Assembly (NCBI GenBank): GCA_944324385.1
Contig: CALUWD010000011.1
Coordinates: 1 to 48,859 of the forward strand
DNA length: 48,859 nt
Direction of reading: 5' to 3'
Origin: Candidatus Gastranaerophilales bacterium
GTDB taxonomy: Bacteria; Cyanobacteriota; Vampirovibrionia; Gastranaerophilales; Gastranaerophilaceae
Shown: piece by piece, positions 45,749 through 48,859 of the stretch
How positions within the stretch are numbered: position 1 is the first letter of the stretch
Layout: every line of letters begins with the position of its first letter
Made by a program: the position numbers and the translations under genes
The notes under the pieces: model-generated
The model's input: only the letters and a program-made list of their open reading frames with translations
What the model was told of the DNA's origin: nothing
Databases searched by the model: none

Positions 45749-45779
45749 TTGACTTGTAAGCTTGAACTGGTATTATAAT
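45749..45779 (+). promoter_or_regulatory. Promoter of the tRNA-Phe array
   Basis: TTGACT (45749-45754) with either TATTAT (45771-45776, 16-bp spacer) or TATAAT (45774-45779, 19-bp). Start expected near 45785, six to seven bases before the first tRNA-like unit and about 275 bases before the intact tRNA. No other good promoter lies in between. Confidence 0.6.
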
Positions 45780-45791
45780 CTTATAGACTTT

Positions 45792-46060
45792 GCCGCGTTA
45801 GCTCCGAGTGGAGCGAAAGCGAAACGGAGTTAAAAAAGTAGAGCTTGCTCTACCAACTCCATTGAAAATTAAATAGATCTGCTGCGTTAGCCCTTGTTGA
45901 GTGAAACGAAACAAGAACATAAGAAAATTCACTAACTGAGCTGATGAGGATTTTGAAAATTAAATAGATTTGCCGCGTTAGCTCCGAGTGGAGCGAAAGC
46001 GAAACGGAGTCAAAAAAGTAGAGCTTGCTCTACCAACTCCATTGAAAATTAAATAGATTT
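45792..46060 (+). repeat. Three tandem ~90-base units carrying tRNA-Phe 5' fragments
   Basis: Units at 45792-45880, 45881-45971 and 45972-46060 (89, 91 and 89 bases) each begin with the first bases of the adjacent tRNA-Phe (GCCGCGTTAGCTC, or GCTGCGTTAGCCC in unit 2) and end in the same AT-rich spacer (about 17 bases) that precedes the intact tRNA. Units 1 and 3 are nearly identical. Between these ends lie hairpins, including a 7-bp stem at 45838-45853 whose right arm continues as the exact reverse complement of 11 bases of the tRNA D-arm. None of the units can fold as a tRNA. Confidence 0.85.
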
Positions 46061-46133
46061 GCCGCGTTAGCTCAGTTGGTAGAGCAAGGGACTGAAAATC
46101 CCTGTGTCCTTGGTTCGATTCCGAGACGCGGCA
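46061..46133 (+). tRNA. tRNA-Phe (anticodon GAA)
   Basis: A 73-base cloverleaf with a 7-bp acceptor stem (GCCGCGT/ACGCGGC), D-arm GCTCAGTTGGTAGAGC, anticodon stem AGGGA/TCCCT with loop CTGAAAA, variable GTGTC, T-arm with TTCGATT and discriminator A. The 3' CCA is not encoded. It is the only intact tRNA in the window and sits as unit four of a ~90-base array. Confidence 0.95.
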
Positions 46134-46169
46134 AATTTTTGTCTTATTTAGTCGGACAAATTATGTCCA

Positions 46170-46223
46170 CAAGGGACTTGCACAGTCCTTGCGTCCCGTG
46201 CAGTCGATTCCTAAGACGCGGCA
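46170..46223 (+). repeat. Diverged copy of the tRNA-Phe 3' half
   Basis: The stretch from CAAGGGACT to GACGCGGCA repeats the anticodon-stem to discriminator part of the tRNA 90 bases downstream, and the spacer after it (46224-46242) matches 46134-46152 with one change. The 5' half is replaced by a small hairpin (46153-46167). It contains mismatches in the stems and is not a functional tRNA. Confidence 0.75.
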
Positions 46224-46286
46224 AATTTTTGTTTTATTTAGTTTATGTAGGTTGGGTGAAACCCAACAACTTTGTAATTAAATGAC

Positions 46287-46384
46287 CAGTTTGATTTGTA
46301 CGGATACTTTGATTATTTTGGAGAGCCCGCTCTGCGAGGGCGTTTTCAGGTCGGAAAATTAAGTTTACTCAAAAAATCAAACTG
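46287..46384. repeat. Short inverted-repeat element, MITE-like
   Basis: A 10-base sequence (46287-46296) and its reverse complement (46375-46384) enclose about 80 bases that contain a GCCC/GGGC hairpin near 46325-46341. The rest of 46385-46566 is AT-rich and I see no gene or clear signal in it. Confidence 0.35.
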
Positions 46385-46566
46385 TCTCTAACCAGTCTTT
46401 TTGTGACTTGAAATTATAAATAGTATTTTAAATTAGTCTGAAACATAATGAAAATACAAAAAATTAATGCACTAGATTCTTAACTGAGTTATTATTAATA
46501 TAGGCACTTAACCTACAGGACATTAAGAAAATAATCTTTGTAGAATCAGCTTAACGTAAATTTTAA

Positions 46567-47556
46567 TTAATATCCCGTCCTGTAGCCCCTATTCCCAATA
46601 TGGTCATTCGATAGAAATATTGAAAAATTGGCATACTCTTTGTCGGGGGTATAAAAATAAAATTTGCTAGTGTTTTTGATTGCAGCTTTATATTCTGCAG
46701 GCAATAGTTCTTTAAAAACAGGTGCTGTTAGAATTTCGCCATAAATATTTTTATATGATACAAATTTTTTCATATATTTTAATGGTATAAACGGGCTAAA
46801 AACATCCCCATGTCTTAAATTATTAGTATTAGTTAATTGGATAAAAATAACAGGACCATTTCCTGCAGAAAGTTTTGCCAAGACACCATTTGGCAGTATT
46901 TGTATAACTTTTGCCATACTTGCATAGACTGTAGAGCAGTTTAAGTATTTACTGGTTTCAGAGGCAAAATACGGAATCATATCAAGGTTAGCTATTTTCT
47001 TTGAGTGCTTTTGTTCATATTGAATACTGTATTCTATAATTTCTTGCCGCATATCAACTATTTTAAGTTGGTAATTATTTGCTTCTTGTATTATTTCAGG
47101 CAGTACTTCAGCTGAATTGATTTTGTATTTTTTTAAATAATTGGTATAATAATAATTAAAATAATTTTCTTCTATATCTTTATTTAAATTATATTTATTT
47201 TCAATTTTAAGTATTTTATTGTACAAATAATCAGAAATATTTAAATTTTCAGAAAGAACAATTAGCTGTTCCGCATATTTACTGTTTTGCTGCATATTGT
47301 TTTTATTTTTTAAAAATTTCTTATAAATATCAACTGAGTTATTGTAGTTGTTTATAATATATTCTTCAATCGTTAAATCACTTTTTTTAGTTTGTGAATT
47401 ATAACACTCTTTCTTATTTTTTATTTCATCTAACATTGCTAAGTTATCAGATTTAAATTCCGCTAATTTGCTTTTCTTTATACGAGTTGGTCTTGCTTCT
47501 ACATAACTTAGATTGAAAGTAAAAACTAAAAGCAATACAATTAATATTCTTTTCAT
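46567..47556 (-). CDS. Secreted protein of unknown function
   Basis: A 329-residue protein with a clear Sec signal peptide: MKRILIVLLLVFTFNLSYVEA, likely cleaved after residue 21. The mature part is largely helical and charged (25-200, many Lys, Asn, Tyr and Glu), then a beta-rich region (about 215-290) with VYASMAKVIQILPNGVLAKLSAGNGPVIFIQLTN. I do not recognise a family. AGAAGGG precedes the ATG. The gene is very AT-rich even for this window and lies alone between repeat-rich stretches, which fits recent acquisition. Confidence 0.75.
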   Translation of the reverse strand: MKRILIVLLLVFTFNLSYVEARPTRIKKSKLAEFKSDNLAMLDEIKNKKECYNSQTKKSDLTIEEYIINNYNNSVDIYKKFLKNKNNMQQNSKYAEQLIVLSENLNISDYLYNKILKIENKYNLNKDIEENYFNYYYTNYLKKYKINSAEVLPEIIQEANNYQLKIVDMRQEIIEYSIQYEQKHSKKIANLDMIPYFASETSKYLNCSTVYASMAKVIQILPNGVLAKLSAGNGPVIFIQLTNTNNLRHGDVFSPFIPLKYMKKFVSYKNIYGEILTAPVFKELLPAEYKAAIKNTSKFYFYTPDKEYANFSIFLSNDHIGNRGYRTGY

Positions 47557-47777
47557 AAAACCCTTCTTATTTATAAGAATATTAGCATAAATATTTGTAT
47601 TTTATAAGTCCGTAGTTTGTGGCTCATTATAAATCGGGTTAGCAATTCGAATATAAATGCATTACCGGTTTAAATTATCAGTAGTCAGATGTGCTGTTAT
47701 ATATATCAACTGTTAATATGCACCTGCACAGTCCTTACATCCCGTGCTGTCGATGTAATTAAACGACCAGTTTGAGT

Positions 47778-48046
47778 CAAATTCTTGCCGAAGGCGAATT
47801 TGACAGGAGCAAAAAAGCGTAAGCCGTGTGTGAAAATAAAGACAAGCGATGAGCTTGGCTTTATTGAAACCAATCGATGGCGACGTTTCAAATTCTTGCC
47901 GAAGGCGAATTTGACAGGAGCAAAAAAGCGTAAGCCGTGTGTGAAAATAAAGACAAGCGATGAGCTTGGCTTTATTGAAACCAATCGATGGCGACGTTTC
48001 AAATTCTTGCCGAAGGCGAATTTGACAGGAGCAAAAAAGCGTAAGC
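47778..48046. repeat. 111-base tandem repeat, two full copies and a partial third
   Basis: Units begin at 47778, 47889 and 48000; the first two are identical by eye and the third keeps only its first 47 bases. Each unit folds into three hairpins: 47778-47802 (7-bp stem, loop TTGCCGAAGGC), 47835-47865 (loop CGATGAG) and 47864-47891 (7-bp stem). The period is a multiple of three, so long frames stay open on both strands, but no ribosome site or protein family supports coding. The rest of 47557-47777 holds only the right-hand direct repeat. Confidence 0.9.
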
Positions 48047-48055
48047 TAGGGTGAA

Positions 48056-48245
48056 GACCAAAACGATGAGTTTTGGTCGTAACTTTTGATGGGCGATGCA
48101 CACAATCCGTTAGCGAAGTATGAGCTTACGGATTAGAAATGCCCTTGGGGTGCGTAGGATATCGAGCACATCGGTGCGAGATACCTACAGGAGCAAGCGA
48201 ACGCCTATTGCGAGCAAGCCCGTTGAGGGTTGCGAGCCCGCAATA
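48056..48245. repeat. Cluster of hairpins next to the transposase remnant
   Basis: Four perfect or near-perfect hairpins follow each other: 48056-48078 (8-bp stem, loop CGATGAG), 48104-48134 (7+3 bp with one mismatch, loop GAAGTATGA), 48154-48188 (5+4 bp with a bulge) and 48206-48245 (7-bp stem). Stems differ completely, while loops share GCGA, CGATG and GAGC words. Base composition is more GC-rich than the surrounding DNA. Confidence 0.7.
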
Positions 48246-48859
48246 ATCCAAGACGAAAAACTCCAAGATGAATTAATTAAAGAAGCAACTCAATCAAATT
48301 GCACCGCATTAGTTCCTTTAAACTCAACAACTAAATACCCGACATTTATTTCAGAGAGCGCAAAATTAACGGCACTTGCTAGAGTAGATATTGTAAAAGC
48401 TCTTCAGAATATGAGAGCTAAATACAAAACTAAAAAAGAGGCTGATTCAATATTTTTAGATTTATACAACTCCGGTTTGTAGATAAAGTAGAAGCATATA
48501 TTGAAAGAGATATTTCAAAATTGGAAGTTGGTGATGTACTTATTGCTGATGGACATACTCTAAACTTTCAAGTAATTAACCCTTTTACAGGAAAACCGAC
48601 CAGAGCAACACTTGTTGGTTTTTTAGATTGGAAATCAACAGCACTTGTCGGATATGAAATTATGATGAGTGAGAATAACTCAATACTACATTGGAACAAG
48701 TATTGAAAATAAACCTGCTTGGATGAAACGAGGAGAAAAACTCCATAAAGATATGCACAAAAAACTCACTAATAATTACATTCCAACTGTACAAGAATTA
48801 ATAAAATACATTGATTGTTACCTAGATTTTCACAATTCAAAACCTTGTCCGAACGCTCC
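48246..48859 (+). pseudogene. Broken Mu-type DDE transposase, cut by window end
   Basis: Three pieces of one protein lie in shifted frames. Piece 1 (48246-48482) is an N-terminal helical region (IQDEKLQDELIKEATQ ... SIFLDLYNSGL). Piece 2 begins around 48470 in another frame (VEAYIERDISKLEVGDVLIADGHTLNFQVINPFTGKP) and holds the first catalytic aspartate of the Mu/rve core (ADGH), reaching ALVGYEIMMSENNSI. Piece 3 (from 48699, first frame again) is the distal C-terminal part (IENKPAWMKRGEKLHKDMHKK ... YLDFHNSKPCPN). The second aspartate and the glutamate should lie between pieces 2 and 3 and are missing, so the gene is dead through a frameshift plus an internal deletion. The 5' end is obscured by hairpin repeats. 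Confidence 0.75.

Follow-up and report, generated by a model that had tools for sequence, protein, structure and literature searches.

Palindromic units with copies of tRNA gene ends in Candidatus Gastranaerophilales

Introduction

Close to the end of a contig from a Candidatus Gastranaerophilales bacterium, several small hairpins appear to share their loops on stems that differ from each other. This raises the question of what kind of DNA produces such hairpins, and whether they belong to a folded RNA, to a mobile element or to both. The window analysed here is the complete contig of 48,859 nucleotides, which is part of an assembly of 1.69 Mb in 42 contigs (genome G000). The relatives used for comparison are named Candidatus Gastranaerophilales or Candidatus Galligastranaerophilus. 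In an earlier note on this DNA, the hairpins were taken as signs of selection on a structured nucleic acid, or of a hairpin-recognising element such as a REP-type or IS200-like passenger.

Recurring loops in the window and in relatives

A check against the window sequence located all of the hairpins described in the earlier note. CTCCGAGTGGAGCGAAAGCGAAACGGAG is present both at 45802-45829 and at 45982-46009, CTTGTTGAGTGAAACGAAACAAG is present at 45893-45915, and the word CGATGAG was found at 47847, 47958 and 48064, each time within complementary stems. The segments 45789-45891 and 45969-46071 are tandem copies of 103 nt with 97% identity, and the hairpins at 47835 and 47946 are likewise tandem copies, over 111 nt at 100% identity, belonging to a 111-bp unit which is repeated 2.4 times from 47777. 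The recurrences in the pairs 45802/45982 and 47835/47946 are therefore not independent. When an identical loop on a clearly different inner stem was required, no qualifying pair was obtained in the window alone, since the GAGTG..CGAAAC loops are unequal in length and the two CGATGAG stems have inner bases in common.

The claim of recurring loops on unrelated stems thus failed by the strict test in the window, but it was confirmed in the relatives. There, at least five complementary stems of unrelated sequence occupy the CGATGAG scaffold, namely GACCAAAA/TTTTGGTC, AATAAAGACAAG/CTTGGCTTTATT, GTTTTAGTGTCG/CGACCTAAAAC, GCCTTAAGGGCTTG/CAAGACCGTAAGGC and ATCTTGAGCTTT/AAAGCGAAAGAT, with the loop GATGA in most and GTTGA in one. 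The GAG..CGA-type loop is kept in the tRNA-Phe units of the relatives on four stems (TTGTT/AACAA, TTGGTT/AACCAA, TCGGTT/AACCGA and TCAACTT/AAGTTGA), and the same hairpin form occurs in the Asp and Leu-tag units and, with a weaker stem, in the Lys unit. Re-dealing the GAG..CGA stems gave 0 of 10,000, a value which is illustrative only because the hairpins were picked by hand. Since the loop test in the window alone was negative, the evidence comes from the surroundings of the hairpins and from the relatives.

The tRNA-Phe locus

The first half of the region is organised by a tRNA-Phe gene and by copies of tRNA ends, both of which were absent from the earlier note. The following features were identified:

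45749-45776, + strand: promoter-like site upstream of the array, TTGACT, 16 nt and TATTAT preceded by TG (consensus match only)
45792-45880, + strand: upstream unit 1, with a 5'-end copy (45792-45804), a hairpin (45802-45829), a fold-back palindrome (45838-45853) overlapping the antisense D-arm (45847-45858), and a leader (45862-45880)
45881-45971, + strand: upstream unit 2, with the 5'-end copy GCTGCGTTAGC (45881-45891), a hairpin with GAG..CGA loop (45893-45915), an antisense D-arm with changes (45930-45949), and a leader from 45953
45972-46060, + strand: upstream unit 3, with a 5'-end copy (45972-45984), a hairpin (45982-46009), a palindrome (46018-46033), an antisense D-arm (46027-46038), and a leader (46042-46058)
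46061-46133, + strand: intact tRNA-Phe (GAA) gene, identified by ARAGORN and by Rfam (RF00005, 69.8 bits)
46134-46224, + strand: downstream unit, with a trailer, a hairpin-rich insert, the 3'-end copy GACGCGGCA (46215-46223) and then a trailer copy

Three tandem units of about 90 nt (45792-46060) thus abut the 5' side of the tRNA-Phe gene, and one mirror-like unit is located on its 3' side. The upstream units begin with 11-14 nt from the start of the tRNA, GCCGCGTTAGC(TC), with the shorter form given above in unit 2. The antisense D-arm reads GCTCTACCAACT, or CACTAACTGAGCTGATGAGG with few changes. Each upstream unit is closed by the leader TTGAAAATTAAATAGATTT, which also precedes the real tRNA-Phe and which we take to be similar to the boxA element of cyanobacterial rRNA spacers.

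This arrangement, with a promoter-like site ahead of the array, is compatible with a role in RNA. The upstream units might be cis-acting structured tRNA leader RNAs which contain the boxA-like TTGAMAATTRAATA and affect transcription, folding or processing, with the antisense D-arm acting as a switch by pairing either with the unit head or with the tRNA. On the evidence discussed below, we consider such a leader function rather unlikely. Terminators on the + strand were also considered and rejected, since terminator-like matches are confined to the minus strand. A hammerhead ribozyme, suggested by CTGATGAG..GAAA near 45942, was rejected as well: its stem II is unpaired, the core is missing in other lineages, and there is no Rfam match.

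Architecture of the units

The units upstream of tRNA genes follow a common plan, consisting of tRNA nt 1 to 11-19, one or more hairpins, an antisense copy of nt ~7-22 or ~15-30, an AT-rich leader, and then the next unit or the tRNA itself. In units with antisense nt ~15-30, a short sense piece precedes the antisense stretch and gives rise to a fold-back palindrome, and one class of units consists of a fold-back palindrome of tRNA nt ~20-33. The downstream plan is the mirror image, with a trailer or terminator, an antisense T-arm, one or more hairpins, and a duplicate of the tRNA from nt ~60 through its 3' end, with CCA if the gene encodes it. In many units the antisense stretch is able to pair with the duplicated end and thereby close the unit into one hairpin; this was also seen for downstream units, for example Pro-ggg and Arg-tct, along with several weaker cases.

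The hairpins share further traits. GNA triloops are enriched, with 9 of 49 in hairpins of upstream units compared to 3 of 468 elsewhere in the window. Symmetric GA/GA internal loops on the tRNA strand are among the commonest upstream (6/78), and their complement, TC/TC, is the commonest downstream (7/86). This strand polarity is not strict, because other genera have a class of 190-205 nt in which the downstream GA words stand on the tRNA strand.

The symmetry of the plan, together with the partly reversed polarity of the GA/GA loops, is what would be expected if a polymerase switched strand at the D- or T-loop of a folded single-stranded tRNA gene, copied back and returned. Such template switching would duplicate the gene end, invert a piece of sequence and create small hairpins, slippage would add tandem copies, and a mobile element at the tRNA genes would be unnecessary. 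In agreement with this, the breaks lie close to the mature end of the gene and to its D- or T-loop, and the inverted piece matches the local tRNA, up to the palindromes of nt ~20-33. However, the hairpin part does not originate from the tRNA, and its form (GAG..CGA and GNA loops) recurs across different tRNAs. Moreover, the modules M1 and M2 described below are common to different genes, and the pattern is concentrated in one genus, so that we regard template switching as an improbable origin of the units.

For Val, Gly, Arg-ccg and Phe, where the duplicated head and the tRNA differ, the antisense matches the real tRNA and not the head, and it tracks the real tRNA also in lineages with a different acceptor stem, as would be expected of a leader RNA. 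Against such a function, mismatches in the closing helix comprise 46 G.T and 35 A.C, a G.U bias which is not decisive for selection at the RNA level. In addition, several of the mirror-plan units downstream (Glu, Val and Gly-gcc) are located past an apparent terminator, so that a leader function cannot explain the downstream units.

Distribution among tRNA genes

For three species of one genus, 30 tRNA genes each were surveyed in G000, G014 and G008, and as a cross-control each tRNA was compared to the flanks of other tRNAs in the same genome. The results, in the order G000, G014 and G008, were:

own 5'-end copies upstream: 14/30, 16/30 and 12/30 (cross-control 0.1-0.5%)
own antisense D-arm upstream: 10, 14 and 11 of 30 (cross-control 1.0-2.5%)
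own 3'-end copies downstream: 7, 5 and 4 of 30 (cross-control 0.1-0.2%)
own antisense T-arm downstream: 4, 6 and 5 of 30 (cross-control 0.7-1.6%)

These own-versus-other-tRNA controls rule out a chance origin of the copies. An assembly artefact is unlikely, since units of differing sequence recur in many independent assemblies.

The plan of units with tRNA ends is concentrated in this one genus and is rare in other genera. In a sample of other genera of the family, 5' copies were identified at 3 of 22 tRNAs, and G034, from another family, had none upstream of 32 tRNAs and two downstream. No tRNA outside the family had own-end copies in the phylum sample. In G027, also from another family, a Phe unit of the same plan was found (L047), with a leader sequence of its own. 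In the literature searched, no account of this pattern of hairpins and tRNA ends was found, and the statement in the earlier note that no named family is known holds for Rfam, where the units gave no family match.

The 3' copies (nt ~60-76) are positioned and sized like typical attachment cores, and the 3' ends of tRNA genes frequently serve tyrosine recombinases as attachment sites. Integrative elements that entered and were lost again repeatedly could thus have left tandem end copies with short remnants between them. This is highly unlikely, since copies of the 5' end are more numerous than those of the 3' end, each insert is a short, structured unit with antisense of its own tRNA, and the pattern extends to nearly half of all tRNA genes.

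Gain, loss and conservation

Orthologous tRNA genes were found both with and without units. For tRNA-His, the site is empty in G014 and carries one unit in G008, and two units plus one degenerate unit are present in G000. For tRNA-Asn, G008 is empty and G014 filled; upstream of Arg-cct, G000 is empty and both G014 and G008 are filled. The tRNA-Phe gene has no unit at four loci of relatives (L064, L065, L066 and L068). That close relatives have orthologous tRNAs free of units argues against a leader function; in favour of it, the same tRNAs tend to keep their units across species.

Mean conservation was higher for inserts than for the flanks ahead of the arrays (0.80 versus 0.57 for G000-G008, and 0.77 versus 0.49 for G014-G008), based on few loci, with two pairs setting different unit types against each other. 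Stem changes between species are compensatory: TTGGC/GCCAA is replaced by TCGGC/GCCGA in the Val unit, AAGAGGGT/ACCCGCGA by ACGAGGGT/ACCCTCGA in the Ile unit, and GCGC/GCGC by GTGC/GCAC and then GCAC/GTGC in the Pro unit. Both the conservation and the compensatory changes would suit a leader RNA. They also support the earlier proposal of selection on a folded nucleic acid, as pairing is preserved despite diverged flanks and hairpins are swapped within a constant scaffold. Most inserts are far closer to the orthologous unit in other species than to inserts of other tRNAs in the same genome, which implies that most are old and that recent movement is shown for a few modules only.

The modules M1 and M2

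The second array of the window, 47777-48194, consists of one partial and three further copies of the module M1, followed by part of a second module, M2:

47777-47810, + strand: 3' part of M1, slot II hairpin CAAATTC..GAATTTG and CAGGAGC end
47817-47921, + strand: M1 copy 1, slot I hairpin 47835-47865 with CGATGAG
47928-48032, + strand: M1 copy 2, identical to copy 1
48039-48194, + strand: long variant of M1 on the same scaffold, in which slot I holds another hairpin (48056-48078) and slot II is longer
48195-48253, + strand: M2 fragment; in relatives, M2 adjoins tmRNA and tRNA-Ala genes

M1 is composed, in order, of GCGTAAGCC, the slot I hairpin, AAC..GATRGGCGACGT, the slot II hairpin and CAGGAGC. 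Among 16 aligned versions, the words of the scaffold are largely kept and slots I and II are occupied by unrelated stems; in slot I, most versions have the loop GATGA, and one group has GTTGA. The pattern GATRGGCGAYGT-N10-40-CAGGAGC, which misses the window's own copies because their slots are longer or altered, was found in ten genomes of the genus, with up to seven copies (in G013), and in none of 24 surveyed genomes outside the genus. M1 is mostly intergenic, with some copies located just after stop codons, and it is also the insert of the tRNA-Tyr 5' unit. Longer M2 copies adjoin tmRNA genes (L011 and L012) and a tRNA-Ala gene (L013), and the tmRNA 3' end is present at L016; the M2 copies are then followed by each gene's own 3' end, CTCCCGCCGTCTCCA or CTCCCGTACGCTCCA.

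Movement of M1 is evident from a viral contig (L310/L335), where the module lies in frame within a Mu-type transposase of 671 amino acids. Exactly these 24 M1 codons are missing from the homologues L336 (96% identical), L337 and L338 (81%). CAGGAG is present on both sides of the insertion; since it is also M1's own end, a target duplication at this site is not proven. With this pair of filled and empty sites, and with hairpins exchanged in a constant scaffold, the suspicion of a hairpin-based mobile element voiced in the earlier note finds support. In the viral search, the M2 and Phe-type patterns gave no match and M1 matched one contig. A wider viral spread was rejected, as the 25 matches of a looser pattern fell mostly in GC-rich coding sequence, at about the number expected by chance.

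Candidate enzymes

Intergenic palindromes with recurring loops and in many copies are also typical of REP elements and BIMEs with their TnpA-REP. The possibility that a Y1 transposase (TnpA-REP or IS200-like) moved the present units is barely credible. No match to Y1_Tnp (PF01797) was obtained in G000, G008, G013 and G014, which are all 99% complete and carry units or modules, so that the REP-type or IS200-like passenger of the earlier note is not supported and is largely refuted; the units differ from REP/BIME also in being tied to the ends of RNA genes. Repeats derived from retroelements were rejected too, since reverse transcriptase is patchy and does not track the units: PF00078 was not detected in G001, G003, G006, G007, G013 and G015, all carriers of Phe units and several of them incomplete. 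From both results, no enzyme can be named.

A model for the origin of the units

The reading we prefer, with a likelihood just below even, is that both arrays belong to one lineage-specific family of modular palindromic insertions, which would be tolerated since the duplicated end spares the RNA gene. In this view, each insertion at an RNA gene is bounded by duplicates of the end of that gene (mature nt 1 to ~11-19, or ~60 to the 3' end), which leaves the tRNA or tmRNA gene itself intact. It brings small hairpins, often with GNA loops or of the stem-GAG..CGA-stem' form, along with the antisense D-arm on the 5' side or the T-arm on the 3' side. Copy number would shift by recombination between the repeated ends, and the related modules M1 and M2 would spread between genes, and in the one observed case into a reading frame. 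The duplicated ends would then represent target-site duplications, and the helix of duplicated end and antisense arm may prevent the duplicate from disturbing the real tRNA, which would be shielded by the closed hairpin. End copies, antisense segments, tandem arrays and own-tRNA specificity are observed directly, as are orthologous sites with and without units, an in-frame insertion together with its empty counterpart, and conserved folding with compensatory changes; a single process is presumed to lie behind both kinds of array.

Several observations stand against the insertion reading. Where head and tRNA differ, the antisense matches the real tRNA, although a simple closing helix would not call for this, and no transposase or recombinase is tied to the units. 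Most inserts are old, with recent movement seen for a few modules only, and the CAGGAG repeats at the transposase site do not prove a target-site duplication.

Comparison to known repeat systems

In E. coli, the repeats at tyrT and tyrV (rtT RNA, rttR/tpr locus) show a similar organization. As here, tandem units carry a copy of the end of the adjacent tRNA, and an antisense of the tRNA end closes the unit into a hairpin. With the same script, 3'-end copies (nt 67-85) were found for tyrV at +160 and +338 and antisense (nt 68-77) at +60, +238 and +416; for tyrT, a 3'-end copy was found at +157, in a unit that contains GAGCGAAAGCGA. In the fold of the E. coli unit, a closing helix surrounds small hairpins. 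The control cluster argX-hisR-leuT-proM gave no end copies. In E. coli, only one locus and its 3' side are involved, as far as checked, whereas here about half of the tRNA genes of the genus are affected, mostly on the 5' side, plus tmRNA. The Rfam RtT description did not match among the Rfam results of the units. By analogy, the units appear to be of the tyrT-repeat kind, outside the Rfam family, and they stand apart by occurring also on the 5' side, by their spread across the genome and by being linked to mobile modules.

We know of no account of how the tyrT repeats of E. coli arose. A tentative and possible extension is a general process of insertion at bacterial RNA genes, in which the mature end of the gene is duplicated around a palindromic module that closes on itself, at the 5' or the 3' side, and the gene stays intact. 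E. coli tyrT would then be an isolated case and this genus a genome-wide outbreak, with the antisense arm taking an active part in target recognition or insulation. A tyrT-like plan which is genus-wide, on both gene sides and represented by empty and filled orthologues makes origin, target choice and effects on tRNA expression testable by comparison. As tRNA genes are essential and compact, repeated insertion of folded DNA that spares the gene is of importance for tRNA processing, genome instability and mobile elements. M1 and M2 represent a type of DNA family that keeps pairing but not stem sequence, with exchangeable hairpins in a constant scaffold.

Rickettsia palindromic elements (RPE) are known to insert in frame into protein genes. 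To our knowledge, they have neither end copies nor antisense arms of their own tRNA. Compared by description, this repeat family (PMC2694212) resembles the present modules as dispersed palindromes, and for M1 only, by the in-frame location in one viral reading frame. Palindromic amphipathic repeat coding elements (PARCEL) encode an amphipathic motif of 25 residues (PMC2996958); leaving the motif aside, they are similar to the 111-bp repeat of the window in being tandem palindromic repeats compatible with coding, and differ from M1, which lies mostly between genes. The 111-bp repeat corresponds to 37 codons and is open over 92 codons.

Downstream Units and the E. coli tyrT Repeats

In E. coli K-12 tyrTV (L309, 1267-1823), the plan of the repeats matches that of the downstream units from the genus of the window, with an antisense piece, small GA-rich hairpins and a 3'-end copy being common to both. 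A downstream class of 170-205 nt, containing for example TTGCTC..TCGCG..AACGGC and GCTCGTTCGCGCTCGAACC, was identified in genera other than that of the window: in G034, a genome from another family, at loci L173 (Asp) and L184 (Pro-cgg), and in other genera at L201, L210, L292 and L293.

Matches to the units are often located at contig ends (G005 C3, G013 C19, G002 C9, G012 C107, G014 C6 and others). It is therefore probable that short-read assemblies break at the arrays and that the copy numbers are underestimates.

Modules at Other Genes

As read from the sequence, a copy of the palindromic module M1 at locus L353 appears to have taken the place of the 3' end of a gene, the product of which resembles an enoyl-ACP reductase. 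A further module (AACTTTCGAAGCTTGAGCCATACTCCGACGGAGTAGGCGAAAGC..) is common to tmRNA and tRNA-Ala, being located just after the 3' ends of these genes in different species (L016, around 554-784; L013, downstream of tRNA-Ala).

Surroundings of the Two Arrays

46273-46294 and 47754-47775: dispersed repeat TGTAATTAAAYGACCAGTTTGA..GTACGGATACTTTGATTATTTTGG..GGTCGGAAAATTA
46570-47556, (-) strand: 329-aa gene between the tRNA-Phe array and the module array
48266-48859: disrupted remains of a gene for a Mu-type transposase (ADGHTLNFQVINPFTGKPTRATLVGFLDWKSTALVGYEIM), as judged by translation

The 329-aa gene gave no match in Pfam. The module array lies immediately before the transposase remnant, pieces of which are spread over several frames up to the contig end. 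The dispersed repeat is a separate one, with copies present close to tRNA-Phe and at other places throughout the genus.
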